A stretch of 64,000 bases of DNA from an uncultured bacterium. Lineage in GTDB: Bacteria; Armatimonadota; UBA5829. The stretch is from the NCBI GenBank assembly GCA_938074205.1, contig CALJES010000012.1, positions 124,001 through 188,000 of the forward strand. The letters run 5' to 3'. Below, one piece after another: positions 3,951-63,977 of this stretch. Position numbers and translations under genes: made by a program. How positions within the stretch are numbered: position 1 is the stretch's first letter; each line of letters opens with the position of its first letter. The notes under the pieces are model-generated. The model had not been told where the DNA came from. It made no database searches and saw only the letters and a program-made list of their open reading frames with translations.

Positions 3951-4014
3951 CCGGTGGGGGACTTTTGAGTTCCTGTCGGTGCAGTCGACAGGTCGGCCGG
4001 AGGTGAGAATACTT

Positions 4015-16200: not shown

Positions 16201-17926
16201 CACAGGCGGGAATAGGCACCGGATGTGGTGTTTCTGGCAGGGTGGAGATGGTGGCCGCTGGTCGATCTACTATTCCATCAACGACGAAGCGCCGGTGTTC
16301 CCGAACACGGTTTCTGACCCGGTGAACGGCGTTCAGCGCGACGCATGGTCTCCTGATGCCAGACTGCGAACTCCAGACTGCCTTGTTTCTGTAAGCTCAC
16401 CCAACCCAGTGCATCGGCAGTTCTGGATAGACCTCCGTCCAGATACCCCTAACCCTGCGGGGTCACGCCACTTGTTCGACGTGGTATATGCTGGGATAAA
16501 CAGGCTCAACCAAACCGCGGACATAATGCTAAGCCGTTACGCGGCAGTCGGTCCTAACGACGGAGACAGGGCTGCGCAGCCTAGTTCGCGTGCTCAACCG
16601 CTGCCGCGTGTTTTCAGCGAGAAACTGATGCGCGATCCAAAATACGGGTTCTTCACGTCACAGCACCTTGCGTGGATTCGGCTCGATCCCAAGCGAGTCG
16701 CACAGGGGCTTGAAACTCCGCCTGCGCTGGATGATTGGGGTGGTTACGATTTTGCAAGCCCCAACCCGGACTTGCCGTATATCCGGGTATATTTTCCCGG
16801 CGGTTATGAACTGGATTCTGTAACTGTGCTTCCACCTGGCTCGTTCGTCAGCGGTACCGACGGTACAGTGCGCGATGCCAACGGCAACTTCCTGTATAGA
16901 CCGCCAGCTCCACTCAGACTAGACAGCGCGGCTACCGAAAACGACTTCAGGCTGGAGATTGATCAAGCCACGGGCATCTACACATACAAGTATCCCAAAG
17001 ACAGCCTGACGCAGCGAATCCTGGGTGATATGTTGGTGGATTTCTCGGCCGGAATAGTGCGGTTTACAAACCCGTTGAAGGAACTCAAGAAACCGGACGG
17101 AACGGTTGTTGCGCCAGAGGTGCGAGCGGACTATACGCCTCAGACTTGGCGGCTCACAACTGATATGGCTGTAGACAATAGCCCGCGCGCATTCATTGAA
17201 AAAACTGCTATGAATCCATTGTCGAATCCTGGGATGTGCAGGTGGGAGACTTCTACCGGTTCACCGAAGTCAGCACCTGTCGACAGACTCTGGGTGCTCT
17301 GGCGCAAGGCAGGACCCGGAACAGACAGCTCTACAATCTTTTGGAAGACCTACCGGGTAGGTATCGATATATCGAAGTACGTGGACCAGACAGGTAAGCC
17401 GATGCCGCCTATCCCTATGAACGCGGATGGTACGGTATCAAGTGCTGCTGAACTTCAGGTCGAGAACAACCTGGGACCGTTCGAAGTTGACCGCAGCGGC
17501 ACCAGGATGTACTTCACCCAGGTCGACGAACGATATAGGTCGCTCTTTAGAAGTGGCTCGGCAAGCTTCCTAATCGGCGCAACTACTCCCGGAGCCGTGT
17601 GGAACGCAGGCGCTGGTTTACCAGTCCCAATTACTGTGTCGTATAAAGACTCCGACGGTAATGTGCGCAGAATCACGGCCTACGACGTATTCTGGCTGGA
17701 AGAGTTGCCGGAGCAGTCGTTGTTTGGTTTTGTCGGCAGTGCGAGTGTGAATGAGGGAAGTGTATACGCGTTTGCCGATCTGTATACGGCCGAGAATGTG
17801 CCGGGGGTGTCGGGGCAGATTGGTCCACGTCAATACTCGAAAATCTGGGTGTTCTGGACTACGACTCGAGGCGGAACTACCGATTTGTGTTGGGCAAACC
17901 TGACGCCGAATTTCGGAGCACGCTGA
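10283..17926 (+). CDS. Giant secreted protein with beta-propeller and two golvesin-like domains
   Basis: 2547 residues. ATG codons at 10283, 10289 and 10292 cluster behind GAAGGGA (10267-10273); the first is used here. A signal peptide spans about residues 1-35, ending near ALAQA. Two related domains resemble the golvesin C-terminal/xanthan-lyase-associated fold: about residues 85-240, ending AGRIIVVADAVKFVP, and about 450-590, ending GDYVVVADACMIVP. Between and after them lie PQQ-type propeller blades, for example VYALDAETGELLWKG near residue 410 and IGSTDGRVYSFDLS near 800. The second half (about 1400-2547) has Ig-like, bacterial-neuraminidase-like strand patterns that I cannot name. Extracellular or surface location is expected. 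No neighbour shares its strand closely upstream, and pilM follows about 130 bases later. Confidence 0.75.
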   Translation: MHMMHFTPRMVKLILAAAFAVQVFSSCALAQATHKVVWPTYHMDSLRRGQNKDCTDITNPASLNLIWVFPRGLGSAADEELATVDDQEPEFIAADPWVGGLRSDQSWEGHFYWTWAKSRTDVDSAGKPNYQKVSVIWEFPKSLPRGRYQIMVWVPAIYQDDVDPEGRPLHNNTTRAEYTVYDNTGATTIKFDQSIGGEWRLLTNRQFDFSGTGYYRVELSNVTDDTKEAIEAGRIIVVADAVKFVPVTGLEIYASVASAQIPWQGSWEEFKDKDITGQEVTIPAGSWSGVIPAVYACSVESPLASSSTAPDTGAVYCINSVTTSLNAYNDTGKLDWQRNWALSRFLGTTIWRYPRSAEQRYTGSTVSGKTVPPNEIEGPIEGGIYASPTLARINDPNHPLVCYVAAMDRQVYALDAETGELLWKGPGVTLGERSPQSILNPAAQAIRPADAFGGEYHIVQCSGSDSAPDAVVWNFTEELRKNNGGEPSEGLAYAIYVWIPPAHGETKPRARDATYTITYVGSSGGTATTEIRLDQSSTDNQGKWVQLGSSYFNVSKVSLSTRTKQIEAGRTAGDYVVVADACMIVPNTVGAFGYCTPVVDIDTDPNPPPPSPTPLATNVFVVSANGRALAFYAGVTNTNKVGTLKWIYPKVRTAIKVTGDADIDDPSMGEMGASPAYWNDQLFIAGFDGKIRKLTRVKSASFADLPAEAWKWPSDDTLDIQRAGFTSTPAIDKDRNQFVIGSIYGIFYCFSTTGTGGPNNDGLLWKYPDIDENRPSRQLPLGAFRYSTAAIADVAGMHRAWIGSTDGRVYSFDLSTNAQERRLRVEFNDDGSVKAVHGTWYLEPNALAPIQAAPALDGGNGSTKRCVMFVGDMREKGVLHWYDANTGASDWRFDPNNPNSSTGTVYQGWRTEGVLFSSPNLTSFQVSNTNVSYVYNGCSDGRVYAWSPHGGAWGGRWAGGDWPFEGQPDERQQAEVALAPDTDIQFDIFPYDFWKSSHDYAERCNPKKRDASGKDRYILPDPWPPSGDWPAIVSVNMKQPSASLLNKTDDEINKELLKYAKERRNHVFPSPTRRTSGGTIYFEWGEKINIILWNLPGLDYLYPGGTSSVSAKRAQIRFNLVNESPGASAGSQIRISGTVSRLQEYTVLDKTPQTAYADPNNQNPFTYYDPLQYQDGTEVKRCFAVAQIDLRGTGSTPPSPGPNWKLTVEIRKLSSTARNAAVIPITIPLAKLKAGDSDSMNAPVPVLTAASTTDPTLKNFVPQDLGINNPLAINTGTGKLAWSYVPNRDDPEAHFNGNGAFTSTGEFVSGPLSLDLGSVGHGTSSPVRLVGIMDRSATGLPDSSGRQNKIDQFRLAASDLWWRGGYQAIESSGGIFFPWEFRPESADYPHIYKRYQRYRKAYDDADPSRSATTLPPLVPDSIDQMTYDKARLTPDTIQVSVEVPRFQPANTLGYRAVMQAYVDSNRNGTFDSGNVVYGRPTTYQEAYREFRASLTVPPDPKIEVEEQIIDIGAVPHGFGMFLGDFTSVNPDPAVKQWFKRVTIKNAGNVNLYNVRIGDPNVPLVLVQDPRAPGRALAASPVLPGTNIRSSVELIMPAAPWLQSMKLEPFITRDPSNPADPSRFGYTISKPRVGDPDPSVMTIPDRRKWSMDYRYSGAGPTPIYTQQAARDAYRAALIGAGMNPALADNLTDPFPTEVCVTVPVSQPVGTYVAPFVPVYAQFGRPGENRFAVAAPTFSLKVTVKETQVTGDAFPAALPHIDISPVPRFGDATPAAFRDLQTGNVYLFWSSNRVYDDAIRAALANATPNDPKLQEFASAPWFINRALLAWDSNTNSWVPAGPQMWGLPGPNDYPILPFFRDTNAQWPPLIGSAAGRVVMDWSFGGMKTGLQSVRHYSPYVAENEDVPADSNLGRTWLVWAGTANIVDPDGKISNEHRIFYTDATHGNVIAQDRKIYSIEHDPASEKRYPALSVFDTGGNRHRMWCFWQGGDGGRWSIYYSINDEAPVFPNTVSDPVNGVQRDAWSPDARLRTPDCLVSVSSPNPVHRQFWIDLRPDTPNPAGSRHLFDVVYAGINRLNQTADIMLSRYAAVGPNDGDRAAQPSSRAQPLPRVFSEKLMRDPKYGFFTSQHLAWIRLDPKRVAQGLETPPALDDWGGYDFASPNPDLPYIRVYFPGGYELDSVTVLPPGSFVSGTDGTVRDANGNFLYRPPAPLRLDSAATENDFRLEIDQATGIYTYKYPKDSLTQRILGDMLVDFSAGIVRFTNPLKELKKPDGTVVAPEVRADYTPQTWRLTTDMAVDNSPRAFIEKTAMNPLSNPGMCRWETSTGSPKSAPVDRLWVLWRKAGPGTDSSTIFWKTYRVGIDISKYVDQTGKPMPPIPMNADGTVSSAAELQVENNLGPFEVDRSGTRMYFTQVDERYRSLFRSGSASFLIGATTPGAVWNAGAGLPVPITVSYKDSDGNVRRITAYDVFWLEELPEQSLFGFVGSASVNEGSVYAFADLYTAENVPGVSGQIGPRQYSKIWVFWTTTRGGTTDLCWANLTPNFGAR

Positions 17927-47119: not shown

Positions 47120-49672
47120 ATGCGAAGACATTCCTGTCCAATAGTATTACTTGTCATCTTGCTCTTGCGCTCGCCCGCATTCGCCAAGGTGAAGCTCGTT
47201 GTGTGGGGGCTTCAGCCCAGCGAGGAAGCTGCAGGCTTGCGTGCCCAAGTGCGCGAATTCGAGCGCCGCAACCCTGGAGTAAAGGTGAGCATCCTGGGGA
47301 TGGGCGCGGGGCAGATGAATCCTCAGAAGCTCATGACTTCCATCGTAGGTAGAACTCCTCCCGACGTCATCAACCAAGACCGTTTCACAATCGGTGACTG
47401 GGCGTCCCGCGACACGTTCATGGACCTAACACCTCTCATAAAGCGCGATCGCAACAAACCAGGCGGCATCAGGCCCGAAGATTTCTACAAACCCTGCTGG
47501 GAAGAAGCAAACTACAAGGGCAAGGTCTACGCCATACCCAACTCAACCGACGACCGCTTCCTCTATTACAACAAAACGCTCTTCCGAGAAGCCGGTCTGG
47601 ACCCCAACCGACCACCCCTTACCTGGAACGAGCTTCTGGAATATGCCAAGAAGCTCACGAAGCGGGACAAGTCTGGTGCGATCCGCCAGATCGGTTTCAT
47701 CCCCAACTGGGGCAACAGTTGGCTTTACCTATACTCGTGGCAGATGGACGGCGAGTTTATGAGCCCAGATGGTAGGCGCTGCACGATGAATAATCACAGG
47801 TCCATTGCAGCCCTGCGATACATGGTAAGCGTATACGACGCCCTCGGCGGCGCCAAAAAGGTAGATCAGTTCCAAGCTGGTTTCCAGGGTTACGCTCTTG
47901 ATCCGTTCCTCACTGGCAAGGTCGCAATGAAGATAGACGTCGACGGAGCAGCTAACAATATCGCCCGCTTCAACCCAGATCTTGATTTCGGCGTCGCGCC
48001 CGCACCCATTCCCGACGAGCGGTTCAGAACGACACTCTCAAACGTGCGCTTCGACCGCAACGGCGTCCCGATAGCCCTGCCTCCTAATCCACGATTGCTC
48101 ACTCCGCGTCCGCGGTACATCACTTGGTCCGGAGGCTTTTCGTGGGCGATACCTGTTGGAGCCAAGCACGTGGAACTTGCGTGGAAGTTTATTAAATGGA
48201 TGTCCAGTCCGGAAGCCGGTCTCATTGCAGCGGATGCGCAGAGGCGCTATAACTTGAGTAAGGGAAGGCCGTACGTTCCGACCATGCACGCGAACTGGCG
48301 CGTCAACGAAGCCGTGTTCGCGAAATACGCGCCCAGGGATCCCAAGTTCAGAAACTGCTTGCGGTTCGCGCTTTCGATGATGCCTTACTCGCGGTATCGT
48401 CCTGTTACGTTCGTCGGGCAGCAGCTTTGGGACGAGCACGTCCGAGCATTTGACCTGGCGGTTCACCACGCCGAAACCGGTTACACTCCCGAGCGGGCTA
48501 TGAATGAGGCAGCGCGAGTTGTTCAACGGGAGCTTGATCGGGTCTTTTCGCGCGAGAAATACCCGCTTGTTCCCATGTGGATCTTGTGGTGCGCTATCAT
48601 ACTTGCGATCCTAGTGCTGACAGTGGTCGTCTGGCGACTGGCGAGCCGGTCGGAGAAGGTGGGCACGCTTATGCGGGGCGAAGCCTATGCGGGATTCCTT
48701 TTTGCTTCGCCGTGGATAATTGGCTTCCTTATCTTTATGATAGGTCCCATCGTGGCATCAGTCGTATTCAGCTTCTGCAATTACGACGTCCTGCATCCGC
48801 CGAGATGGGTGGGGTTGGCGAACTACAAAGGCTTGGTGACCTACGACTGGGGGCTACTCTCTAAAGCTCTTTACAACGCGGCGTTCTTGGCTGTGATAGG
48901 TCTGCCCCTTGGCATAATAACCGGTTTGGCGATCGCTATGCTCCTGAACACAAATGTCAAAGGGATGAGCTGGTATCGAACGCTTTACTATTTGCCTTCA
49001 ATTGTGCCGGTGGTGGCTTCAGCTGTGCTGTGGCTTTGGGTGTTGAACCCGCAGTGGGGCATTGTAAATGCTATATGGCGGATGACCTTGACGCAGTGGT
49101 TTGGTTTGCAGCCGCCTGGATGGATCGCGCAGCCTGGGGAGTTCTTTGGGGTTCTCGCGTGGCTTTGGAAACACACTCTTGGCGCACTGGGACTGCCTCT
49201 GCCGGGTCCGCTTGCCCACCCGCCTTCGTATTTTGGCGCTAAGTCGGCTCTGATTGTGATGGGGCTTTGGGGAGCTGGCGGAGGGATGATAATCTGGCTG
49301 GCTGGTCTGAAGGGGATCCCGTCGTCATACTACGAGGCAGCGGAGATCGACGGCGCCACCCGCTGGCAGCAGCTCCGACACGTAACACTTCCTATGCTCA
49401 GCCCTTATATCTTTTTCAACCTAATTATGGGCACGATAGGTGTGCTACAAACATTCGACAACGTTTATGTAATGACCAACGGCAGCGGAGGACCTGTGGA
49501 TTCCACCTTGGTGCCGATGCTCTACCTATTCAACAAGGCCTTCCGCTATTTTAGCATGGGATATGCGTCGGCGCTTGCGTGGGTGCTGTTTGTTATCATT
49601 CTTGCGTTCACGATCTTGCAGTTCAGGATAGCCCCGCGGTGGGTTCACTATGAGGTTGAACGAGGCAAGTAG
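47120..49672 (+). CDS. ABC transporter: sugar-binding protein fused to MalF-type permease
   Basis: 850 residues, ATG 47120; an in-frame stop 24 bases upstream fixes the start region, and no good ribosome site precedes it. Residues 1-22 are a signal peptide (no lipobox Cys); about 23-450 are a family 1 extracellular solute-binding protein (VWGLQPSEEAAGLRAQVREF, NQDRFTIGDWASRDTFMDLT, IPNSTDDRFLYYNKTLF). A membrane helix at about 485-507 ties it to a MalF-like permease (about 515-850) with its coupling loop YEAAEIDGATRWQQLRHVTL near residue 738. The binding protein is thus tethered to its own permease. Works with the next gene; no ATPase gene is in the window. Confidence 0.92.
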   Translation: MRRHSCPIVLLVILLLRSPAFAKVKLVVWGLQPSEEAAGLRAQVREFERRNPGVKVSILGMGAGQMNPQKLMTSIVGRTPPDVINQDRFTIGDWASRDTFMDLTPLIKRDRNKPGGIRPEDFYKPCWEEANYKGKVYAIPNSTDDRFLYYNKTLFREAGLDPNRPPLTWNELLEYAKKLTKRDKSGAIRQIGFIPNWGNSWLYLYSWQMDGEFMSPDGRRCTMNNHRSIAALRYMVSVYDALGGAKKVDQFQAGFQGYALDPFLTGKVAMKIDVDGAANNIARFNPDLDFGVAPAPIPDERFRTTLSNVRFDRNGVPIALPPNPRLLTPRPRYITWSGGFSWAIPVGAKHVELAWKFIKWMSSPEAGLIAADAQRRYNLSKGRPYVPTMHANWRVNEAVFAKYAPRDPKFRNCLRFALSMMPYSRYRPVTFVGQQLWDEHVRAFDLAVHHAETGYTPERAMNEAARVVQRELDRVFSREKYPLVPMWILWCAIILAILVLTVVVWRLASRSEKVGTLMRGEAYAGFLFASPWIIGFLIFMIGPIVASVVFSFCNYDVLHPPRWVGLANYKGLVTYDWGLLSKALYNAAFLAVIGLPLGIITGLAIAMLLNTNVKGMSWYRTLYYLPSIVPVVASAVLWLWVLNPQWGIVNAIWRMTLTQWFGLQPPGWIAQPGEFFGVLAWLWKHTLGALGLPLPGPLAHPPSYFGAKSALIVMGLWGAGGGMIIWLAGLKGIPSSYYEAAEIDGATRWQQLRHVTLPMLSPYIFFNLIMGTIGVLQTFDNVYVMTNGSGGPVDSTLVPMLYLFNKAFRYFSMGYASALAWVLFVIILAFTILQFRIAPRWVHYEVERGK

Positions 49673-49704: not shown

Positions 49705-51030
49705 ATGGAGTTTATTGTTTGGATATTAGTCGTAGCTTTAGGTTACTTCGCTGTAGGCAGGACGCTGTTTGTTTTGATAACTGCGTTCGCTGAACGGAAG
49801 TTAGCACGTATACCTCTGCTTTTTGCAGGGGCAGTGGCTTCGCACGCGATTACGCTGCTGTTGGTTTACGTTGTAAATAGATTGGGTGCGGTGCATGTAT
49901 CGACGCTTTGGATTGCGACGGCCGATCTGGTTATATTCGCGGCGTTTCTGGTGATTCAGGACAGTGGCAGTGATCAGCGGCGCCCATGGAAAGAGGTCAA
50001 ATGGAGAAAGCAGCTCTCCCGGCAAATCCAGCTTCACCTCGCGCTTCTAACGGGAGCGATCGTATTCTCCGTGCCTTTCTATTGGCTGGTAACTACCTCT
50101 CTCAAACCCGACGAACGCACCAATATTTTCCCGCCGGACATTATTCCGATGATACAGCGAACGGTCAGGCTCGATGGAGAGGAGAGAAAGGTCTACGTTG
50201 TCCAGCTGAATGGGGACGAGATCAGGGCGGTGAAGCTGGCGGAGCTTCCAGGTGGTGTTTGGAGGATGCGCACACTGGATGGGCAGGAAGGGGTGATATC
50301 GGTCAACGCGTCCGACGCAAAGCCGGATCTCAAACCGACGGCGCTATGGTCCAACTACCGAGACGCGTTGAACTTCCTGCCTCCGGAGTATCGGAAAGGA
50401 CTCGTGCCGCTTTGGAATACGATCTACGTGACGGTGCTGGTAATTGTGGGCACTACGCTGTCTAGTTCGCTCGTAGGGTTTTCGTTTGCGCGCCTTCGCT
50501 GGCCCGGGCGTGATTTGTTGTTCTTTATCATGATAGCCACAATGATGGTGCCGGGGGCAGTCACGATGCTGCCGGTGTTTCTTGTATATCGGTGGCTAGG
50601 CTGGGTGGATACTTTGAGGCCTTTGTGGTTTGGTGCGCTTTTCGGCAGCGGGTTCAATATTTTCCTTTTGAGGCAGTTTTTTATGACTATTCCGACCGAT
50701 CTCGAGGACGCTGCCAAAATAGACGGCTGTTCTTATTTCCGAATATATTGGAACATAATGCTGCCACTTATAAAGCCGGCACTTGCTGCTATAACGATAT
50801 TTGCGTTTATGGGTAGTTGGAACAACTTCATGGGTCCACTGATCTACATCAGTTCACCAGAGAAGATGACCCTTGCATATGCACTGCAGTTATTCCAGGG
50901 TTCGCACGGAGGAGAGCCGGCGATGATGATGGCCGCCGCCACTTTAGTTATGCTTCCTGTATTGGCTGTATTCTTCTTCACGCAGCGGTATATGATTCAG
51001 GGAGTGACTCTTACAGGCTTGAAGGGGTGA
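49705..51030 (+). CDS. MalG-type ABC sugar permease with extra N-terminal and periplasmic parts
   Basis: 441 residues, ATG 49705. The C-terminal two thirds is a normal MalG-like permease, with the coupling loop LEDAAKIDGCSYFRIYWNIM near residue 333 and a final TQRYMIQGVTLTGLKG. Two additions stand out: about 110 extra N-terminal residues with three membrane helices, and an insertion of about 95 residues (about 138-232) after the first canonical helix that should face the periplasm (VRLDGEERKVYVVQLNGDEI). Usual MalG-type permeases are near 280 residues. Pairs with the fused protein upstream. Substrate unknown. Confidence 0.92.
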   Translation: MEFIVWILVVALGYFAVGRTLFVLITAFAERKLARIPLLFAGAVASHAITLLLVYVVNRLGAVHVSTLWIATADLVIFAAFLVIQDSGSDQRRPWKEVKWRKQLSRQIQLHLALLTGAIVFSVPFYWLVTTSLKPDERTNIFPPDIIPMIQRTVRLDGEERKVYVVQLNGDEIRAVKLAELPGGVWRMRTLDGQEGVISVNASDAKPDLKPTALWSNYRDALNFLPPEYRKGLVPLWNTIYVTVLVIVGTTLSSSLVGFSFARLRWPGRDLLFFIMIATMMVPGAVTMLPVFLVYRWLGWVDTLRPLWFGALFGSGFNIFLLRQFFMTIPTDLEDAAKIDGCSYFRIYWNIMLPLIKPALAAITIFAFMGSWNNFMGPLIYISSPEKMTLAYALQLFQGSHGGEPAMMMAAATLVMLPVLAVFFFTQRYMIQGVTLTGLKG

Positions 51031-51419: not shown

Positions 51420-53369
51420 ATGAACGACAAACCGACAACGTGCGGGTTCTGCAGTTGCGGCTGCGCACTTTATGTAGAACCCAGAAAATCAGGACTCGGT
51501 ATATCAGGATTGTGTCCGAGCACTACCCACCCCGTCAGCACCGGCAGACTGTGTATTAAAGGTTGGAATGCCACAACATCCCTCATAAGAGTAGATAGGT
51601 TACAAACACCTCTCGTCAGGAAAGGCAATGAACTGCAGCCTGCTTCTTGGGAAGAAGCGCTCTCTGTTACAGCCGACGTATTGAAAAGGGTCATAAGCAC
51701 ATCCGGGTCCGAAGCAGTCGGTGTCATAGGATCAGCGAAGACAACCAACGAGGAGTGCTACTCCCTGGTAAAGTTTGCAAGAGCAGTTCTGCGCACGCCC
51801 AACATAGACGGAGCGTGCAGATTTTATGATGCCTCGCTAATACCCGCACTGATCGATACCATTGGTATTCCCGCCTCTCAGATAGGCGTCGAGCAGCTGG
51901 CAGAAGCAGGTTCTATGCTTATCGCTGGCGCGAATGTAATGGAGCAGCTTGCCCATATAGGCTCTCGAATTCAGGACGCTGTTGAGAATGGTTGCAAGGT
52001 TGTTGCAGTTGATCCGCGGAAGTCGAGGCTTGCACCCCAAGCGGGTTTGTTTTTGCATCCGAAGCCCGGATCGGATCTGACATGGGTTCGAGCGCTCCTT
52101 AAGACGATACTTGACCGCAAGCTCTACGTCGATGCCGCGCCTCAGATGCCGGGATTTGAAGAACTGCGAGCTTCTCTGGACGATGTGGTTATAGGCGTTC
52201 TACCGCAGGTGTGTGGAATCGAACCTGAGGCAGTGGTTGAAGCGGCTACGATTCTCGCAGAAAACGAGCCATGCGTGGTGATGTTCGGTTTGGGAGTCTT
52301 GCAGCAGCAGGACTCAACTATTCTCGTAAAAGCCTTGGCGAATGTTGCGCTGCTTTTGGGCGGTTACGTGATGCCGCTAAGAGGCCAAAACAACGCACAA
52401 GGCGCCTGCGACATGGGCGTTCTCAAAGATTACCTGCCGGGATACGAACCCATCAGCAGCGTAGAAACTCGGGCGAAATGGGAATCCGCTTGGCAGTGCG
52501 CAATCAATCCGCAAGCTGGATTGAGCGCCATTGAAATGGTTCAGGGCGGTGTGAAGGCGCTGCTGGTCTTTGGCGAGAATGTTGCTCTGTCGGCCCCCAA
52601 CACTGAGCAGACGATTTCTGCATTAGAAAAGCTGGACTTTCTTGCAGTGAGTGACCTCTACCTTACTGAAACGGCTCAACTGGCTGACGTAGTTTTCCCG
52701 GCTTGCTCGTTCCTAGAAAAGGATGGAACGTTTACCAACATTGGCAGGAGAGTTCAACGTGTGCGCAGGGTGATTGACCCGATCGGTGAATCCAAGTCGG
52801 ACCTTGAGGTCATAGTAGGGCTCGCTTCCGCCTTCGGCAAGGAGATGGCCACAGATCCATCAGCTGTTATGAAAGAGATTGCTGCTACCGTTCCTCTGTA
52901 TGCCAATTTCAGTTACGAACAGTTCGAGACCGGATGGGGCGAGCCATGGCGAGCTAGCACGCCAACGCCACGCCTGGCACCGATTCATGCTACCGATCTC
53001 CCGCCTGAAGAACCTGATTACCCGTACCAACTTTTAGCCAGCAGAATCAACTTCCACACACAAACAGGGACTATGTCTGCGAGGTGTGGTATCCTGACTC
53101 GGGAGTATCCTGAGTCGGTGGTTGAGATAAATCCATCAGACGCTGAAAAACTCAAGCTCCGACCCGGCAGGGTGGTGCGAGTAAGCTCGAAGACAGGTAG
53201 TCTGACGAGGCGGCTGGCTGTGAGCGACGCGGTGCCACAAGGCTGCGTGCATGTGCCGCACTATTTCGGAGGGGACTCGGCGAACATGCTTGCAGGTTAC
53301 GAATGCGATTCGATATCCGGAGTGCCCGTGTACAAAGGCTTACCAGTTAAGATAGAGGCGGTGTCATGA
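51420..53369 (+). CDS. Formate-dehydrogenase-like molybdopterin protein lacking the Mo-binding Cys/Sec
   Basis: 649 residues, ATG 51420. Belongs to the FdhF branch of molybdopterin oxidoreductases. C8, C11, C15 and C45 form the N-terminal [4Fe-4S] site; SAKTTNEECYSLVKFARAVL, LRGQNNAQGACDMGVL near residue 325 and the C-terminal cofactor-cap domain (RINFHTQTGTMSARCGILTR) are typical. At the site where FdhF has Arg-Val-Sec-His, this protein reads RFYD: Tyr136 replaces the metal ligand and Asp137 the conserved His. The codon is TAT, so this is not a missed selenocysteine. Formate oxidation is therefore unlikely; an electron-relay or structural role, as for NuoG, or an altered substrate is more plausible. 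First gene of the operon. Confidence 0.9.
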   Translation: MNDKPTTCGFCSCGCALYVEPRKSGLGISGLCPSTTHPVSTGRLCIKGWNATTSLIRVDRLQTPLVRKGNELQPASWEEALSVTADVLKRVISTSGSEAVGVIGSAKTTNEECYSLVKFARAVLRTPNIDGACRFYDASLIPALIDTIGIPASQIGVEQLAEAGSMLIAGANVMEQLAHIGSRIQDAVENGCKVVAVDPRKSRLAPQAGLFLHPKPGSDLTWVRALLKTILDRKLYVDAAPQMPGFEELRASLDDVVIGVLPQVCGIEPEAVVEAATILAENEPCVVMFGLGVLQQQDSTILVKALANVALLLGGYVMPLRGQNNAQGACDMGVLKDYLPGYEPISSVETRAKWESAWQCAINPQAGLSAIEMVQGGVKALLVFGENVALSAPNTEQTISALEKLDFLAVSDLYLTETAQLADVVFPACSFLEKDGTFTNIGRRVQRVRRVIDPIGESKSDLEVIVGLASAFGKEMATDPSAVMKEIAATVPLYANFSYEQFETGWGEPWRASTPTPRLAPIHATDLPPEEPDYPYQLLASRINFHTQTGTMSARCGILTREYPESVVEINPSDAEKLKLRPGRVVRVSSKTGSLTRRLAVSDAVPQGCVHVPHYFGGDSANMLAGYECDSISGVPVYKGLPVKIEAVS

Positions 53370-55477: not shown

Positions 55478-56011
55478 GTGGATCTTGCTGAGGATCTGGC
55501 AAGCGAGGTTTTACAAGCCAGGGCCGACACGGTTTTGGTGGTAGGAGTCGGGGACGAAGAGCACGGGGACGACGGTGTCGGTCCGCTGGTGGTTCAGCTG
55601 GTTGAAAAAGCGGTCGGTCAAGATTCGAGTAGTTGTGCGTTCAAGACGCTGGATGCTGGCAGGGCACCGGAATTGGAAACTTGGCGAATAAGAGAATTAG
55701 ATCCTGATTTAGTGTTGTTCATCGATGCTGTGGATTTCGGTTGTGCTGCGGGGGATGTGGCGCTTCTAAAACCGGAGCAACTCAGGGCAAGCGGTTTTGA
55801 TACACACCGCGCACCCCTGCGGTTGACGATGCAATACGTGGAATCGGAGTTGGGGGCGAAATGCCGACTGATTGCCATACAGCCGAGGGACGTAAGGTTG
55901 GGTTCTGAAATGTGTGCCGAAGTTCGCTCTGCGGCAGAGAGTGTTGCTTCGTTGATCGCTGACATTTTTAAACTACAGGATTTGAAAACGCCTGATGGAA
56001 GTGAACTATGA
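55478..56011 (+). CDS. [NiFe] hydrogenase maturation protease (HycI/HyaD family)
   Basis: 177 residues, GTG 55478. Endopeptidase that trims the C-terminal tail of the large subunit after nickel insertion. Family signature GVGDEEHGDDGVGPLVV (residues 23-39), where GDDGVG and the nearby acidic residue contact nickel; a second Asp is in LFIDAVDFG and a His in THRAPL. Slightly longer than HycI. Overlaps the large-subunit gene (ATGA), whose 29-residue tail is its expected substrate. Confidence 0.92.
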   Translation: MDLAEDLASEVLQARADTVLVVGVGDEEHGDDGVGPLVVQLVEKAVGQDSSSCAFKTLDAGRAPELETWRIRELDPDLVLFIDAVDFGCAAGDVALLKPEQLRASGFDTHRAPLRLTMQYVESELGAKCRLIAIQPRDVRLGSEMCAEVRSAAESVASLIADIFKLQDLKTPDGSEL

Positions 56012-57696
56012 GTCCTGAGACTTTGCAGAAGAAATTCTTGAAAGGGCTAACTGAGCAATTCCCAGACATATTGGGAAAGCTTCGGGAGTACGTACCGGGT
56101 CAGCTTATAGCTGTTTTGTCGCGGGATGAACTGCCCAAGGTTACCAAGTACGCAGTCAATCAACTCGGTGCGCGATTTGTGATAACCGTCGCGACTGATC
56201 AAAGGGATAAAACGGGCGATTTCGGGATCAGTTATATCCTCGCCTTTGACGAGGAGAAGCAATTTCTTGTACTGCACTCGAACTTGCCCGCGGATGACCC
56301 CAGAATAGAGTCCGTTACCCCAGACGTGCCGGCAGCCAACTGGGCAGAGCGCGAGGCGTATGATATGGTGGGAATAGTTCCGGAAGGGCATCCTGATCCT
56401 AGACGGCTCGTCCTTCCGGACGATTTTCCGGCTGGTATTCATCCGCTTCGGAAGGAATACGAGTATAACACCCGATTTCCGAGCGAGCCACAGAACGCAC
56501 CACCGAGAATGCCTCCACCAGAAGGTTCTACTGTTGTTCCTCTTGGTCCGTTCTATCCTACACTTGAGGAGCCAGCTTACTTCAGGCTTTTCCTTGACGG
56601 CGAGCGTGTAGTGGGTTCGGACTACCGCGGATTCTACAACCATCGTGCGGTAGAAAAACTGGGGGACAGTGAGCTCAACTACAATCAGGTGCCGTTTGTT
56701 GCACAGCAGATATGTGGAATTTGCGGTCAGGTCCACTCGTGTGCGTACGTTGAAGCTGTTGAACGGGCTTGCGAGATAGAAACGCCAATGCGGGCGAAAT
56801 ATATTCGAACTATCCTGCTGGAACTCGAACGAATACACAGTCACCTGCTTTGGGTTGGACTAGCCGGCCACATAATCGCCTTCGACACGGTGCTAATGCA
56901 GCTCTGGCGCATCAGGGAACCCGTGATGTGGTTGATGGAACGGGTGACTGGCAACCGCAAGCATTATTCTTCAAACCTAGTGGGCGGTGTCCGGTTCGAT
57001 ATCACTCTTGAAGCTGCAGAAGATATCAGACGCGTGCTTGACAAAGTTGAAGAAGAGTTCAAGGCGGTCGTCGATGCGGTGTTGATCGATACGTCCTTGA
57101 TGGCGAGGTTGAAAGACGTAGGTATTCTCACTGAAGAGAATGCTCGCGCACTAGGAGCTGTCGGACCGACAGCGAGGGGTTCCAACGTAGCTATCGACTG
57201 CCGGGTAGATCATCCTTATGCAGCTTACGACCAGCTGGATGTGCAGAAACAGGTTCAAGACGGCTGTGACTGTTGGGCTAGAACGCTTGTACGGCTTTAC
57301 GAAGTTTTCGAGTCGATTCGATTGGTCCGCAAAGCTTTGGATCAGATGCCGGGTGGGCCAATAATGGCAAAGATCGATGGGTCGCTTCCGGCTGATAGGA
57401 TCGGTTTGTGCTCAGTAGAGGCGGCACGCGGCGAATCGCACCATTATGTTCGCACAGGTGATAACAACAGGCCGTACAGGTGGAGGTTGCGAGCGCCGAC
57501 TTATCCTAACCTCCAAGCTGTCGGCTGCATGATCCAAGGCGTGAACTTGGCAGACGTGCCCATCTGCATTGGAAGCTACGATCCGTGTTTCTCGTGCACT
57601 GAACGCGTGGAAACACTTGACGTGAATACAAACGAAATCCGCGTGTATACACGCGAAGAACTGCAAGAGCTTTCGAGGCGGAAGACGCTGGGGTGA
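56008..57696 (+). CDS. [NiFe] hydrogenase large subunit, NuoC-NuoD/HycE-type fusion
   Basis: 562 residues. Residues about 1-165 are a NuoC/HycE-N domain (ANWAEREAYDMVGIVPEGHP), the rest a NuoD/HycE catalytic subunit. All four Ni ligands are kept: C236 and C239 in QQICGICGQVHS, and C527 and C530 in YDPCFSCTERVET. This separates a true group 4 hydrogenase from complex I. Predicted processing after Arg533 would release 29 residues. The usual ER before CGIC is QQ. Overlaps the protease gene upstream; the ferredoxin gene follows after 4 bases. Hyp accessory genes needed for the Fe(CN)2CO site are not in the window. Confidence 0.95.
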   Translation: MSPETLQKKFLKGLTEQFPDILGKLREYVPGQLIAVLSRDELPKVTKYAVNQLGARFVITVATDQRDKTGDFGISYILAFDEEKQFLVLHSNLPADDPRIESVTPDVPAANWAEREAYDMVGIVPEGHPDPRRLVLPDDFPAGIHPLRKEYEYNTRFPSEPQNAPPRMPPPEGSTVVPLGPFYPTLEEPAYFRLFLDGERVVGSDYRGFYNHRAVEKLGDSELNYNQVPFVAQQICGICGQVHSCAYVEAVERACEIETPMRAKYIRTILLELERIHSHLLWVGLAGHIIAFDTVLMQLWRIREPVMWLMERVTGNRKHYSSNLVGGVRFDITLEAAEDIRRVLDKVEEEFKAVVDAVLIDTSLMARLKDVGILTEENARALGAVGPTARGSNVAIDCRVDHPYAAYDQLDVQKQVQDGCDCWARTLVRLYEVFESIRLVRKALDQMPGGPIMAKIDGSLPADRIGLCSVEAARGESHHYVRTGDNNRPYRWRLRAPTYPNLQAVGCMIQGVNLADVPICIGSYDPCFSCTERVETLDVNTNEIRVYTREELQELSRRKTLG

Positions 57697-57700
57697 GTTC

Positions 57701-58237
57701 ATGTTCAAGGCCAAGCTGAAAGAAGCTATCATCTGTTTCGGAGCCGGCCGGGTTACTCTGAAGTACCCGTTTGAGCCGTCTCCTGTACCGCCTAAGTTTC
57801 GTGGCAAGATAGAATTTGACGCGCGCAAATGTATTGCATGTGGGGGTTGTGCGAACGTGTGTCCTCCTCGGTGCATTGTGATTGAGGATATGGGTGAGGT
57901 TGCCAAGATTACGTTCAACCTCGACCGATGCATTCAGTGTGCACGGTGCTACGAAGTGTGCCCCGAGAAAGCAATTTGGCCCACAGACGAGTTCGAGACC
58001 GCCACACCAGACAAGTCTGATTTGACATCGGAGATGATAGTGTGGATGTCGAGTTGCCAGCGGTGTGGTCGCTGCTTCGAAACCGATAATGCGATCGACA
58101 AGTTTGAGAGCAAGCGGTGGCGCGGCCGAGGACCCGGAGAGGCTAACAAACACGGAATATTCCCGGTTAAACCGCCGATAGACTTTACGCTGCCAGGTTC
58201 GCTTGTTCGAGAGCCGGAGGGGGAACAGGTCCAATGA
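57701..58237 (+). CDS. NuoI/HycF-like ferredoxin subunit
   Basis: 178 residues, ATG 57701. Two [4Fe-4S] sites of the 8-Fe type: CIACGGCANVCPPRC and CIQCARCYEVCPEKA, as in the ferredoxin subunit that wires complex I and group 4 hydrogenases. A third Cys group, C119/C122/C125 (CQRCGRC), occurs in the C-terminal extension, followed by a basic Gly-rich stretch; most NuoI and HycF lack it. Overlaps the small-subunit gene by four bases. Confidence 0.93.
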   Translation: MFKAKLKEAIICFGAGRVTLKYPFEPSPVPPKFRGKIEFDARKCIACGGCANVCPPRCIVIEDMGEVAKITFNLDRCIQCARCYEVCPEKAIWPTDEFETATPDKSDLTSEMIVWMSSCQRCGRCFETDNAIDKFESKRWRGRGPGEANKHGIFPVKPPIDFTLPGSLVREPEGEQVQ

Positions 58238-58752
58238 TATCCGATCTGTGCAAGAAGATGCTCAGCAAGTCGCTGTGGCTATTTCACACCAACTGCGGTG
58301 CTTGCAATGGGTGTGATATAGAGGTTATCGACGTTCTCACACCATACTACGACGTTGAACGATTTGGGATGAAGCTGGTTGGCAGTCCTAGGCACGCAGA
58401 TGCATTGGTGATTACCGGTTCTGTTTCGCGCCAAGTTGCTCCGGCCTTGAAGAGGCTATACGAGGCAACGCCAGATCCTAAAGTTGTAATTGCTGTTGGC
58501 ACTTGTGCAGTCGGCGGCAATATTTGGTTCGATACCTACAACATACTCGGCGGCGCTGATAAGGTGGTGCCAGTAACTGTGTACATACCCGGTTGTCCCC
58601 CGAGACCAGAGGCGATTATATACGGCGCAGCCTTGGCTCTCGGAATGGTCCCGAAGAAAGTGAAACCACAGCGCGAACAGCACGTTCCTCGGGGCTTCGA
58701 TCTCGATGCTTATATAGCAAGGTGGCAGGACACACCGGTTGTGACCCGCTAA
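58234..58752 (+). CDS. NuoB/HycG-like hydrogenase small subunit
   Basis: 172 residues. Carries the single proximal [4Fe-4S] cluster next to the Ni-Fe site: C24 and C27 in CGACNGCDIEV, C91 in VGTCAVGG, C121 in IPGCPPRPEAI. Length and motifs fit group 4 hydrogenases, the CNGCDIEV form matching HycG/EchC rather than complex I, which has CC. It ends the peripheral-arm genes; the membrane genes begin 137 bases later. Confidence 0.94.
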   Translation: MISDLCKKMLSKSLWLFHTNCGACNGCDIEVIDVLTPYYDVERFGMKLVGSPRHADALVITGSVSRQVAPALKRLYEATPDPKVVIAVGTCAVGGNIWFDTYNILGGADKVVPVTVYIPGCPPRPEAIIYGAALALGMVPKKVKPQREQHVPRGFDLDAYIARWQDTPVVTR

Positions 58753-58889: not shown

Positions 58890-60338
58890 ATGCACGCGAT
58901 GGTAGCTGCCGTAATAGGTGTTCCGATCGCAGGCGCAGTGTTGTGCCTTGCTGTTCGGGACAAGGCCTCGAAATACATAGCCGTGCTTGCGACGGCCGTT
59001 GCAGCTGCGTATGCGTCTGCTATCGCAGCAGCGCAGTCAAAGGTAACAGTTGTATTCGGCGGGTTGCCTTGGTTGGGCGAAGGCGCCGCGAAGGCTCTTT
59101 TTGGCTATCAGGTTGATCCGCTGGCTTCGATAATGCTGTTAGCTGCAACCATTATTGGACTAGTTACAGCCATCTACTCATTCGGCTACGTTTCTGTGGG
59201 AAACCGCGAACACAGCACTAGTTCGGGCCAAGCACGCTACTTCTTCTGGTTAATGCTCTTCGTAGCGTCAATGTGTGGGATTGCGCTATCTCCGAACCTC
59301 TTGCAGCTCCTCATTTTCTGGGAAATGACAACATTATGCTCCTGGGCGCTCATTTCTTTTTATGACAACGAAGAAAGCCTTAAAGCCGGAATGAAAGCCC
59401 TGATTATGACCTCGTTTGGGGGATTGTTTTTTATCGGCGGACTCGTTTGGGTGTTCAGCGCAACAAAGTCTATGGGGTTTGATGCTCTCGCTTTGATGAC
59501 GCCAACTGCTCGAGCATGGGCATTCGTGCTGTTTCTGATAGCGGCGTGGGCAAAGAGTGCTCAGCTACCATTCCACACGTGGTTGCCGGATGCTATGGCG
59601 GCTCCGACTCCGATAAGTGCTTACCTACACGCTGCATCAATGGTGAAGGCCGGCGTATTTCTGGTTGCGCGGCTTCTGCTCGCAGGTTGGCATTTGCCCT
59701 ACGATGCAGCGTTGCTTCTAGTAGTCGCGGCTTTAGTAACAATGTTCTCCGCGTTATATTTCTACTTCTTCCAGAGCGATGCGAAAAGGCTACTGGCCTT
59801 TTCGACGATAGCACAGCTGGGATACATAATGCTCGGACTTGGAATCGGAAGTATGGGTGCAGACCTTGCGACCCGTGGTGCAGTATTGCACATTCTAATG
59901 CACGCCTTCGCTAAAACTTTGCTCTTTTTGAGTATTGGAGTTGTAGCATATACCCAAGGAACGAGGGAACTAACCAAACTTTCCGGCTTGGCAGCAAAGG
60001 CACCCGTGGCAGCATTCGGATTTTTTGTGGGTGCATTCGCACTTTCGGGAGTGCCGCCTTTGCCGTGTTTCTGGAGCAAACTTTACATGTTGTCCGGCGC
60101 CCTGCAACTGAAAGGATCATTCGGACCTGTTATACTCGTTCTGGTAATGCTTGAAAGCCTTGCAACTTTCGGTTGGTTTTTGTATGTAGGCCAGAGGATC
60201 TTCTATGGCAAACCTGCCAACGAGGACCCGTGCGGTATACCGCTAAGCATGAACGCGATTTTGATAGCTCTCATATTGGCAACAATTCTGGTGCCAATCG
60301 CGGGGATTCCAATAGCTGCACAGATAGTCGGTCTGTGA
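58890..60338 (+). CDS. NuoL/HyfD-like antiporter-type membrane subunit
   Basis: 482 residues, ATG 58890 behind GGAGGAG. About 13-14 membrane helices, of the family of Na+/H+ antiporter-like subunits in complex I and group 4 hydrogenases. Charged residues of the ion path are visible: Glu145 in WEMTTLCSW, Lys222 in AWAKSAQLPFHTWLPDAM, Lys in LHAASMVKAG, and a later Lys in FAKTLLFLS. It lacks the long C-terminal lateral helix of NuoL. A short insertion, REHSTSSGQARYF, lies between two early helices. Confidence 0.93.
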   Translation: MHAMVAAVIGVPIAGAVLCLAVRDKASKYIAVLATAVAAAYASAIAAAQSKVTVVFGGLPWLGEGAAKALFGYQVDPLASIMLLAATIIGLVTAIYSFGYVSVGNREHSTSSGQARYFFWLMLFVASMCGIALSPNLLQLLIFWEMTTLCSWALISFYDNEESLKAGMKALIMTSFGGLFFIGGLVWVFSATKSMGFDALALMTPTARAWAFVLFLIAAWAKSAQLPFHTWLPDAMAAPTPISAYLHAASMVKAGVFLVARLLLAGWHLPYDAALLLVVAALVTMFSALYFYFFQSDAKRLLAFSTIAQLGYIMLGLGIGSMGADLATRGAVLHILMHAFAKTLLFLSIGVVAYTQGTRELTKLSGLAAKAPVAAFGFFVGAFALSGVPPLPCFWSKLYMLSGALQLKGSFGPVILVLVMLESLATFGWFLYVGQRIFYGKPANEDPCGIPLSMNAILIALILATILVPIAGIPIAAQIVGL

Positions 60339-60374: not shown

Positions 60375-62372
60375 ATGTTCCAAAGCAACGTTGAAATAAC
60401 TTTCTTGGTGCTCGTTGTGGGAGCATTGATTTCAGGGATGTCTAGATCCTGGCGAACAGCGGGATGGGTAGCTGCGGTATTTGTGGGTGCAGCTACTGTC
60501 TTGTGCTGGATAGACGTAGTCAATGTGCTTGTTGGCTCAAAGACTATACACCACACTATTCTTCACCTGCCGCTGTTTGGAACGTCCCTTGCAGTGGACT
60601 TGGACCCCCTAGGGGCAGGATTTCTCTTGCTCACGATCGCAATAACTTTTCTTGCCACCATATATTCAATCGGCTACATGGGTGGGGAAGTAACTGAGAA
60701 GCCATTGCGCTTCTACACACCGCTACTACTTTTTGCGGCAGGGATGATCGGGGTAGTAAGCGTACAGGATTGGCTAGCATTCTTTTTATTCTGGGAACTA
60801 ATGACTCTGGCCTCATACGTTCTCGTAGTTTTCAATCGCGAGGACCCAGTCGTTCAGCGGGCAGGCCTCAAATACTTTATAATGACCCACGTAGCCTCAG
60901 CGGGACTGTTGATTGCAGCTCTTGTTTTGTGGCTCAAGACAGGTTCATTCTCCTTTGGGGAGCAAGCCACCGCGCTAAAAAGTTCGACGGATTGGCTTAG
61001 GAATACGCTTCTTGCTCTTTACTTTCTGGCATTCGCTACAAAATCAGGTGTGTTTCCATTTGGCGATTGGCTTCCAGACGCGTATCCTGCGGCGCCATCG
61101 GGTGTCTCCGCTATACTCTCGGGCGTAGCAGGAAAGCTGGGGGCGTACGGAGTCCTGCGTGTGTTTTGGCAAATGATGGGCGACAGCCTGACGCGTGCGG
61201 AGCTTATGACCTGGGGTGTCGTTATAGCCGTGTTCGGCACAGTTTCGGCATTCGTCGGCGGCGTTACGGCTATGCGTGAGAACGACTTTAAACGCCAGCT
61301 GGCGTTTTCCAGTATTGGTCAGACCGGTTACATATATTTGGCACTTGGCATAGGTATAGCGTTGCTTAGGTCTGAAAGGCTTGAGCCGATAGCACAGCTT
61401 GCACTACTAGGCGCGGGATTCCATATCCTAAATGATGCAGTTTATAAGTCGCTGCTCTTTATGAGCGCCGGATCAGTTTTGTATTCCACTGGAACACGTG
61501 ATCTGAACAAGGTCGGGGGGCTTGCGGCTGTCATGCCCTGGGCTGCTGCAGCTGCTTTTGTGGGGGTCCTAAGCCTCTCAGGATTACCGCCGACCAACGG
61601 CTTCGCATCCAAGTGGGTTATCTACCAATCTTCTATATCTGCGGGATTGGAATTTGCCCCATTCCTTATAATGGCGATAGTAGCTTTCTTTGCCGGTTTG
61701 AGCACCTTCGCATACTCACTCAAATTCTTCTATGGAACGGCTTTCCTTGGTACACCGTCGGCTGAGCGCGAGCCGAAACGCTTACCGCGAACCATGACCA
61801 TTGCACAGGTAGTGCTGGCGGCAATATGTGTAATAGTGGGAATGGTCCCGGCTACTGCTGTTAAGCTTGTATCTTCTGCGTTTCAGCTGGACAATCATGC
61901 GCTTTACAGAATCAGTTCATACGGAGCACTGTCCACTCAGCCCCATATACATCCTTTGGCAGCATATTGGAACCCAGTTGGGCTTGCGATTGCCCTGGGG
62001 GTTTGTGTTCTGTTTGCAGAATTTATTAGGACGGTAGGCAGGCCTGGCAAGCGCGAGGTTCCAAATTGGTATTGTGGAGAAGAGCATGTGGAACACGAAG
62101 TTCGGTTCCGAGCTCAAGACTTCTATTCAGCTTTCAACGAGATCTTTGCTAAGGTCTATCCGCGACTGCCTGCACCAAGATTACCCGGCGTAAAGAAGCT
62201 CAGGTCAGTATTGGATTTTGATGAGTGGCTGTATCAGCCGATAACCGCATCGGGTAGGCGCATTATAACTAAAATAAGTCGTTCCCATGCTGGTGTACCG
62301 CAGCTCTACATAATTTGGCAAATTGCTGGTATGGGAATAGTCTTGGCCATTCTACTTTTCACAATTAGGTAG
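60375..62372 (+). CDS. HyfB-like antiporter-type membrane subunit
   Basis: 665 residues, ATG 60375 behind AGAGGAG. Second, larger antiporter-like subunit with about 14-16 helices: Glu near 141 in FWELMTLASY, Lys in AFATKSGVFPFGDWLPDAYP, and YKSLLFMSAGSVLYSTGTRD. The C-terminal cytoplasmic segment (NWYCGEEHVEHEVRFRAQDF) is typical of HyfB/HycC and links to the HyfC-like subunit next. Two antiporter-type subunits suggest more than one ion-translocating channel in the complex. Confidence 0.93.
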   Translation: MFQSNVEITFLVLVVGALISGMSRSWRTAGWVAAVFVGAATVLCWIDVVNVLVGSKTIHHTILHLPLFGTSLAVDLDPLGAGFLLLTIAITFLATIYSIGYMGGEVTEKPLRFYTPLLLFAAGMIGVVSVQDWLAFFLFWELMTLASYVLVVFNREDPVVQRAGLKYFIMTHVASAGLLIAALVLWLKTGSFSFGEQATALKSSTDWLRNTLLALYFLAFATKSGVFPFGDWLPDAYPAAPSGVSAILSGVAGKLGAYGVLRVFWQMMGDSLTRAELMTWGVVIAVFGTVSAFVGGVTAMRENDFKRQLAFSSIGQTGYIYLALGIGIALLRSERLEPIAQLALLGAGFHILNDAVYKSLLFMSAGSVLYSTGTRDLNKVGGLAAVMPWAAAAAFVGVLSLSGLPPTNGFASKWVIYQSSISAGLEFAPFLIMAIVAFFAGLSTFAYSLKFFYGTAFLGTPSAEREPKRLPRTMTIAQVVLAAICVIVGMVPATAVKLVSSAFQLDNHALYRISSYGALSTQPHIHPLAAYWNPVGLAIALGVCVLFAEFIRTVGRPGKREVPNWYCGEEHVEHEVRFRAQDFYSAFNEIFAKVYPRLPAPRLPGVKKLRSVLDFDEWLYQPITASGRRIITKISRSHAGVPQLYIIWQIAGMGIVLAILLFTIR

Positions 62373-62383
62373 GGAGGACGCTG

Positions 62384-63286
62384 ATGTCTGCGGCGATTCC
62401 GATCATAGTAAATGGGGCCATAGTTCTGTTACTGGCTCCCCTGTATGAGGGTGTTGTGCGTAAAATTAGGGCGATTGTACATTCTCGTCAGGGTCCACCC
62501 GTTACTCAGGTCTACAGAGACATTTTGAAGCTACTAGGCAAAGAAGACTTGCGTTGCACGCGCAATGTGCTATTCCGTTATGGACCAGCGGTGGCGTTTG
62601 GCTCTTTTCTGGTGGCGGCCCTTTTGACACCAATGGGCGTACGGCCTGGCACGGGGCTGGGCGGTGACGTAATCACCTGGATTTACTTTCAGGTTCTAGG
62701 GGCTGCTGTGATTAGCCTTATGGCCGTCTCTTCTGGCAATCCATTCTCGGAAGTTGGTAGCGCCAGAGAGATGATGTTGCTGCTGTCGGTAGAGCCAGTT
62801 ATTGTAGCTAGTCTTATCGCTGCGGCGGTAAAGAGTAATTCGCTGGGGCTAATTGATATGGTCGATTATAATCTAGCGACCGGCCCGACAGTGTCGTTAA
62901 TATGCGGCGGGCTAGCGGTTTTTCTAGCACTGCAATTGATGCTCGGAAGGATTCCCTTCGATATCGCCGAGGCCGAAACGGAAATTGTTGAAGGTCCGTT
63001 GATGGAGCAGAGTGGGCCAAATCTGGCGCTTCTCAAGATGGCTTTGCTTATAAGGCAGATGACGTATTGTTTTATGCTTGTCCAGGTGTTTGCGCCGTGG
63101 CCGAAGATTGAACCTTGGCCACTTGCAGTCATTGTGGCGTCCATCAAGGTTCTTGTCCTATTTGTCTTAGCTGGAGTAGTCGAAGCAGTAATGCCGAGGG
63201 TGCGTATAGATCACGCGCTGAACTATATGGCCAGGGTATTGTTTGTGGCGCTTGCATCACTTGCGTTCGCTGCTATTGGAGTGTGA
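62384..63286 (+). CDS. NuoH/HyfC-like membrane subunit
   Basis: 300 residues, ATG 62384 behind GGGAGG, 11 bases after the previous gene. About 8 membrane helices; it docks the peripheral arm to the membrane arm and forms the quinone-like cavity region in complex I. Motifs: RKIRAIVHSRQGPPVTQVYR, DILKLLGKEDL, GNPFSEVGSAREMMLLLSVE, and the acidic loop PFDIAEAETEIVEGPLMEQS. All fit HyfC/HycD/EchB. Confidence 0.95.
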   Translation: MSAAIPIIVNGAIVLLLAPLYEGVVRKIRAIVHSRQGPPVTQVYRDILKLLGKEDLRCTRNVLFRYGPAVAFGSFLVAALLTPMGVRPGTGLGGDVITWIYFQVLGAAVISLMAVSSGNPFSEVGSAREMMLLLSVEPVIVASLIAAAVKSNSLGLIDMVDYNLATGPTVSLICGGLAVFLALQLMLGRIPFDIAEAETEIVEGPLMEQSGPNLALLKMALLIRQMTYCFMLVQVFAPWPKIEPWPLAVIVASIKVLVLFVLAGVVEAVMPRVRIDHALNYMARVLFVALASLAFAAIGV

Positions 63287-63290
63287 GAGC

Positions 63291-63977
63291 ATGACAGAAA
63301 TAAGCCCCAAACTTGTTCACACGCTGAGCCTGATTATGGTTTTGACAAGTTTCGCGGCGGTCGAGGCGCGGAACTTGCGCCATGCTACAGTGGCATATCT
63401 TTGCCAAGCTTTGCTAATTTGTGGTCTTCTGGCTGTGTATTCTATTGAAAATACCGCTCTCCTTTACTGGGCTGTGACGGCACTTGTAACGAAAGCCGTG
63501 TTGGTGCCGGCATTCCTCTGGCGCTCAACTGAAGGTGTTCCCAACGAGAGTCGCTCGCTTATAGGTTTCGGTACATCCAGCATCGTCGCGATATTGGTTC
63601 TGGCCTTGATGTACGTATTCACGCATGCCCACGCCAGGTTTTTCGTTCAGAGTGGTACGTATCAGGCCGCAACTCCAAGCACATTGCTTTCCATAGCTGA
63701 AACAAACTTAGCAGTGGCGTTTACGGTTTTCGTATTGGGTCTTTATGCGATCCTCACACGTCGAGATGCTATAAAGACTGTTATCGGATTATGTTTGCTG
63801 GAAAACGGCGTCCATCTGAGTCTGGTGAGCCTAGCACCAACAATAAGGGAGACTGCCCTGGCGGGGATATCAACGGAGGTAGTAGTAACGGTATGGTTAC
63901 TGCTTTACATAATAGGTGGTATCAGAGACAAATTCGGCACTACCGACACATCCAAGCTGTCAGAACTGCACTGGTAG
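63291..63977 (+). CDS. HyfE-like membrane subunit (NuoK-related)
   Basis: 228 residues from ATG 63291; the longer open frame overlaps the HyfC-like gene. About 7 helices. The C-terminal half has the NuoK-like core: LYAILTRRDAIKTVIGLCLL, ENGVHLSLVSLAP and the ending GGIRDKFGTTDTSKL. HyfE of hydrogenase 4 has the same length and order, next to hyfC in related operons. Confidence 0.9.
   Translation: MTEISPKLVHTLSLIMVLTSFAAVEARNLRHATVAYLCQALLICGLLAVYSIENTALLYWAVTALVTKAVLVPAFLWRSTEGVPNESRSLIGFGTSSIVAILVLALMYVFTHAHARFFVQSGTYQAATPSTLLSIAETNLAVAFTVFVLGLYAILTRRDAIKTVIGLCLLENGVHLSLVSLAPTIRETALAGISTEVVVTVWLLLYIIGGIRDKFGTTDTSKLSELHW

Follow-up and report, generated by a model that had tools for sequence, protein, structure and literature searches.

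What does a formate dehydrogenase (FDH) alpha subunit do in a hydrogenase operon when its metal ligand and its catalytic His have both been replaced? The question is raised by the window, a stretch of 64,000 nucleotides (positions 124,001-188,000) of contig CALJES010000012.1 from an uncultured Armatimonadota bacterium, whose relevant features are collected in Table 1. A first-pass annotation of this DNA had noted that residues 134-137 of an FdhF-like ORF read RFYD where FDHs have R-V-(Sec/Cys)-H, and had proposed a former FDH that turned into an electron relay or toward another reaction.

The replacement is evident in the DNA, where positions 51819-51830 read AGA TTT TAT GAT and encode R134-F135-Y136-D137. 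This stretch aligns without gaps to the R-(L/V)-(Sec/Cys)-His of solved FDHs and of E. coli FdhF, with Y136 and D137 placed on Sec/Cys140 and His141 of the latter by both phmmer and MAFFT. The [4Fe-4S] cysteines (C8, C11, C15 and C45) and the RGQNNxQGACDMG segment (RGQNNAQGACDMG) are present, as had been claimed. The further claim, that the remainder of the fold has survived, holds for the fold itself: an AlphaFold2 prediction with a mean pLDDT of 89.5 can be superposed on FDHs along its entire length, with Z up to 47. It does not hold for the columns that are invariant among 21 canonical FDHs, since only 91 of these 196 are unchanged in all six Tyr-Asp orthologues, about half being altered in at least one. 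In this clade, a six-residue loop ahead of LRGQNN is also deleted and H181-P182 is changed to Leu/Val-Ala. The ORF matches the Fdh-alpha model TIGR01591 with an E value of 1e-147 and 492.8 bits, below the NCBIfam equivalog cut-off of 666.25. It has the full-length fold and N-terminal [4Fe-4S] motif of an FDH and lacks the Cys/Sec ligand and the catalytic His.

The six orthologues, which come from a search of 291 Armatimonadota genomes, are the window ORF (genome G000) and its counterparts in G232 (L002, 85% identity), G231 (L003, about 70%), G225 and G224 (61% each), and G223 (59%), and they span two families. Beyond them identity falls to 40%, and the matches are mostly canonical FDHs. All six have Tyr-Asp, preceded by Phe or Leu, and none has Cys or Sec at the site. 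A scan of GenBank contigs returned two orthologues and one distant homologue only; these two orthologues occur in the genome set as well. A sequencing error or one-off mutation is therefore barely credible: six orthologues agree, two of them in both collections, which puts Tyr-Asp beyond chance or error. C133, which had been named as an alternative metal ligand, was rejected because its counterpart in FdhF is Ala137 and G223 has Ser there. Tyr is also found at the Cys140 position in other dead subunits, those of G034 (L096) and G200/G201 (L088, L089), followed there by Cys or Ser, and so may be ancestral or recurrent. In two FDH loci, L017 (G229) and L033 (G209), the matched pieces on either side of the catalytic position are separated by a single in-frame TGA, a probable selenocysteine codon.

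In most carriers, loss of the site is accompanied by an apparent lack of the means to fill it. MoeA, MoaC and FdhD are absent from five of the carriers (G000, G232, G223, G224, G225), which are 97-99% complete. In the same five genomes, MoaA is represented only by radical-SAM matches below the cut-off, which were excluded from the pathway counts, MobA only by partial matches, and the DMSO-reductase family by no match other than the FdhF-like subunit. MobA, like the molybdate permease ModB, carries little weight here, as the two cross-match nucleotidyltransferases and other transporters. MoaE was rejected as an uninformative marker, being absent everywhere tested, including FDH-bearing genomes such as G196. 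For comparison, MoaC is present in 161 of the 291 Armatimonadota genomes and in 22 of the 24 behind loci L010-L033 (Fisher p 2e-4, although the genomes are not independent). Both MoaC and MoeA are absent from twelve operon carriers that are at least 95% complete (the five above and G206, G207, G208, G034, G267, G270 and G272). Judged by gene content, cells with the Tyr-Asp form apparently cannot synthesise the molybdenum cofactor (Moco).

The sixth carrier, G231 (67% complete), is different. There a single contig carries moeA, moaA, moaC and fdhD together with NuoE/F-like genes, so that the bis-MGD synthesis and FdhD expected of an FDH host are found in this genome and not in the other five. 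A second, canonical-looking FdhF fragment lies on a separate contig; the two contigs are C249 and C266 (L068 and L067). The G+C content of the contig with the Moco genes agrees with that of the operon contig, and together with the second fragment this indicates that G231 probably has an ordinary FDH besides the Tyr-Asp subunit. G231 shares a genus with close relatives and yet differs from them by the moeA-moaA-moaC-fdhD cluster.

Table 1. Features of the FdhF-like gene and the hydrogenase operon, in window coordinates.
Feature	Position	Strand	Remark
FdhF-like subunit, 649 aa, catalytic residues replaced	51420..53369	+	three FdhF molybdopterin-oxidoreductase domains
C8xxC11xxxC15	51441..51464	+	first three ligands of the N-terminal [4Fe-4S] cluster
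C45-I-K47-G-W	51552..51566	+	C45, fourth cluster ligand; K47, K44 of E. coli FdhF
Tyr136-Asp137 (TAT GAT)	51825..51830	+	position of Sec/Cys140-His141
RGQNNAQGACDMG	52380..52418	+	retained pocket segment; R321, R333 of FdhF; six-residue deletion ahead
HydB/AsrA-like iron-sulfur protein, 363 aa	53366..54457	+	
HydG/AsrB-like FAD/NAD(P)-binding diaphorase subunit, 304 aa	54522..55436	+	DHODB-type Fe-S motif
HycI-type hydrogenase maturation protease	55478..56011	+	
HycE-like fused NuoC/D [NiFe] hydrogenase large subunit	56008..57696	+	both CxxC motifs
CGICGQVHSC	56713..56742	+	L1 NiFe ligand motif of the HycE-like subunit
DPCFSCTER	57580..57606	+	L2 NiFe ligand motif of the HycE-like subunit
HycF/NuoI-like ferredoxin subunit	57701..58237	+	
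HycG/NuoB-like small subunit	58234..58752	+	
HyfD-like antiporter-type membrane subunit	58890..60338	+	
HyfB-like antiporter-type membrane subunit	60375..62372	+	
HyfC/NuoH-like membrane subunit	62384..63286	+	
HyfE-like membrane subunit	63243..63977	+	true start uncertain; name inferred from location and from a homologue that related operons carry there
Further antiporter-like subunit	from about 63989, past window end		

The FdhF-like gene is the first of an operon that continues with HydB, HydG (FAD), HycI, HycE, HycF, HycG and HyfD, B, C and E. In the HydB-like protein, most cysteines are conserved among 34-38 homologues, and in the HydG-like protein the four Fe-S cysteines are conserved in 38 of 38; the pair resembles the HydB-HydG module of sulfhydrogenases (group 3b) at the domain level only, all equivalog cut-offs being missed. 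The large subunit has E. coli formate hydrogenlyase (FHL) HycE as its best PDB match (7z0s_E, E 2.7e-128), and, with its two ligand motifs present, the NiFe site appears intact. Both CxxC motifs, a HycG-like small subunit and a membrane arm are those of an FHL/Hyf-like group-4 [NiFe] hydrogenase. This reading is supported by HycI within the operon and by HypA, HypE and HypD, which follow the last antiporter-like subunit 3' of the window (the Hyp names were read from the sequence, without a family search). Elsewhere in the window, a single 850-aa ABC transporter ORF (47120-49672) joins an extracellular SBP_bac_1 solute-binding protein to a BPD_transp_1 permease; behind it comes another permease, whose N-terminus carries a long extension (49705-51030). 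Two other large ORFs are one of 2547 aa (10283-17926), in which Golvesin_C (residues 132-245) is the sole recognised domain, and near it one of 1561 aa (3979-8664), for which Pfam gave no match at E 1e-8.

The operon has many relatives in the phylum. A search with the large subunit gave close homologues (51-59% identity) in about 40 more Armatimonadota genomes, and 39 stretches were analysed. The usual gene order is FdhF-like, HydB, HydG, HycI and Hyf/Hyc subunits. In about 30 related operons, wherever the site is readable, the FdhF-like subunit beside HydB-HydG lacks the Cys/Sec-His pair, which is replaced by Gln-Cys, His-Ser, Gln-Arg, Asp-Ala, Tyr-Cys (G034) or Tyr-Ser (G200, G201); in other cases this segment is shorter. 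The N-terminal cluster cysteines are kept in all of the related subunits except that of G061, and the NiFe CxxC motifs in every large subunit of complete sequence. An intact RLCH was found in just three hydrogenase operons, those of G275 and G261 and the second one of G262, and all three are without HydB and HydG. In G275 and the second operon of G262, both of which were inspected, a Fer4_11 HycB-type ferredoxin occupies their place. Loss of the site thus accompanies replacement of the formate-to-HycB path by the NAD(P)H module. In the second operon of G262, which is RLCH-type and FHL-like, two further genes separate FdhF from the HycB-like ferredoxin, one for a redoxin and one for a ferredoxin-thioredoxin-reductase beta chain (L084, 14699-15723).

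In a maximum-likelihood tree of FdhF-like subunits, canonical FDHs form one group (support 100), to which the Tyr-Asp clade is attached ahead of the remaining dead subunits (100). With no root and with long branches among some of the dead subunits, the tree is compatible with one loss as well as with several. In the tree of large subunits, the RLCH operons are nested within the dead ones with weak backbone support, which suggests exchange of modules.

The Tyr-Asp clade differs from the other dead subunits in what is left of the cofactor pocket. On a list of 20 conserved presumed contact positions, drawn up before the data were viewed and not taken from coordinates, the clade keeps 15-17, whereas it keeps about 51% of the remaining conserved columns (p 0.003-0.035 for each sequence, the sequences not being independent), and dead homologues of similar divergence keep 5-7. 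A comparison made without the list gives 18 columns that are kept in all six Tyr-Asp orthologues and lost in equally diverged dead homologues. Among the 18 are N176, D202, R333, Q335, R581, H585, N662 and K679, which are presumed bis-MGD contacts. Ligand binding may therefore persist in the clade. Its pocket could have been retained because Moco was lost recently in these lineages, because another ligand is bound, or because the structure needs it.

The explanation that we consider best, with a probability of about two in three, is that the FdhF-like subunit is a molybdenum-free former FDH alpha subunit, which, as a scaffold or as a relay, acts as a connector within a group-4 [NiFe] hydrogenase linked to NAD(P)H. 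That it is a former FDH, as the first-pass annotation had supposed, is well supported: Tyr-Asp is fixed, the alternatives of Cys/Sec in orthologues and of C133 at the metal failed, and the Moco pathway is missing in five of the six host genomes. The subunit would have lost formate oxidation and would most likely hold neither molybdenum nor tungsten. The gene order suggests that the encoded subunits assemble into one complex, with the NAD(P)H module of HydB and HydG in the place of the HycB formate path of FHL. By analogy with FHL, group 3b enzymes and the architecture of complex I, electrons from NAD(P)H would enter at the FAD of HydG and pass through the HydB clusters to HycF, HycG and HycE. 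The FdhF-like subunit would bridge HydG/HydB and HycF-HycG-HycE structurally, its single N-terminal [4Fe-4S] cluster possibly lying in the path. The Hyf membrane arm would couple ion movement to the reduction of protons or to the reverse reaction, and the assembly would be an NAD(P)H-linked hydrogenase that sits in the membrane and translocates ions. The relay that the annotation had proposed fits the operon and the retained cluster, but a purely structural role is equally compatible with them, and nothing was found in support of a turn toward another reaction.

Two observations argue against this explanation: an empty pocket need not keep the presumed bis-MGD contacts selectively, and G231 encodes MoeA, MoaA, MoaC and FdhD together with a second FdhF fragment. 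The conserved pocket leaves a ligand-binding role of the subunit open. It is conceivable, at well below even odds, that selection has maintained a molybdopterin-enzyme fold in cells without Moco synthesis, an intact dinucleotide pocket binding a metal-free ligand or scavenged bis-MGD within an NAD(P)H-driven [NiFe] hydrogenase. The more specific proposal that the metal is gone and the nucleotide-binding residues are under selection for a structural ligand other than Mo-bis-MGD, such as guanine nucleotides or another pterin, would account for the eight pocket residues and the excess of contacts kept relative to dead homologues, and for the absence of Moco genes. We regard it as unlikely, as the retained residues could serve structure or an interface, the contact list does not come from coordinates, and we know of no such ligand in the FDH-type family.

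Still less likely is that Mo- or W-bis-MGD is bound, with Tyr136 or no protein residue as ligand, the cofactor being obtained from other cells or by an unrecognised pathway and used for a relay or another reaction. Conservation of the residues equivalent to K44, R333, R581 and others is consistent with this, as are the Moco genes of G231; arsenite oxidases, in which the metal has no protein ligand, can likewise be superposed on the model (Z about 32). However, five near-complete genomes are without MoaC, MoeA and FdhD, His141 is replaced as well and the loop ahead of LRGQNN deleted, and bacterial uptake of mature bis-MGD is, to our knowledge, without precedent. An active FDH with an altered site, which would make the complex a true NAD(P)H/formate-linked hydrogenlyase, is highly improbable: the full-length fold, the cluster and Arg333 are those of an FDH, but the metal ligand and the catalytic His are replaced in every orthologue, and the FdhD sulfurtransferase is missing in five of the six genomes.

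Of known systems, E. coli FHL (FdhF and HycBCDEFG; PDB 7z0s/7z0t) resembles the window operon in HycE, HycF/HycG and the Hyf-type membrane subunits, and its FdhF superposes on the FdhF-like model with Z 44.5 over 645 residues. The present operon differs in having Tyr-Asp for Sec140-His141 and HydB-HydG for HycB, and in a host genome where no Moco pathway was found. In HydB-HydG-linked FDHs (e.g. L069, G194), FdhF likewise has HydB- and HydG-like neighbours, but there RLCH is kept, and no hydrogenase genes were found in the 10-kb contig. NuoG of complex I is a catalytically inactive former molybdoenzyme domain within an electron-transfer complex. StnC likewise carries a catalytically inactive FdhF-like domain (PMC10482914). 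The FdhF-like subunit is comparable to both in this respect, but unlike them it retains most of the presumed pocket residues. It is also far closer to FDH than to NuoG (TIGR01591 493 bits, against 127 for the NuoG model TIGR01973). A NuoG orthologue was in fact rejected, as the latter score (126.7 bits) falls below the cut-off of 470 and the ORF begins at Molybdop_Fe4S4 (residue 4), without the N-terminal [2Fe-2S]/extra [4Fe-4S] domain.

The same gene content has been described in Saganbacteria RX5A, with relatives in Zixibacteria and Omnitrophica, as an "enigmatic" group-4 [NiFe] cluster whose molybdopterin protein could not be classified as an FDH (Matheus Carnevali et al., 2019; PMC6349859). 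The passages of that paper on the cluster do not discuss active-site residues or Moco synthesis. Our literature search found no tyrosine ligand or dead FdhF in such hydrogenases and no earlier report of a dead site or a missing cofactor pathway for this cluster type. New here are the fixed Tyr-Asp pair, the rule that links site loss to HydB-HydG, the lack of a Moco pathway, and a pocket that has been preserved selectively. Besides NuoG in complex I, this would be a further case in which an ion-translocating complex of the complex-I superfamily keeps a former molybdoenzyme after its chemistry has gone. One phylum holds intact (RLCH) forms, Tyr-Asp forms with their pocket residues, and partly deleted forms, so that the transition is open to study. 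An FDH-like annotation of such genes does not indicate formate metabolism, and the HydB-HydG module of the operon is a candidate for the electron input of a hydrogenase cluster that was unexplained in 2019.
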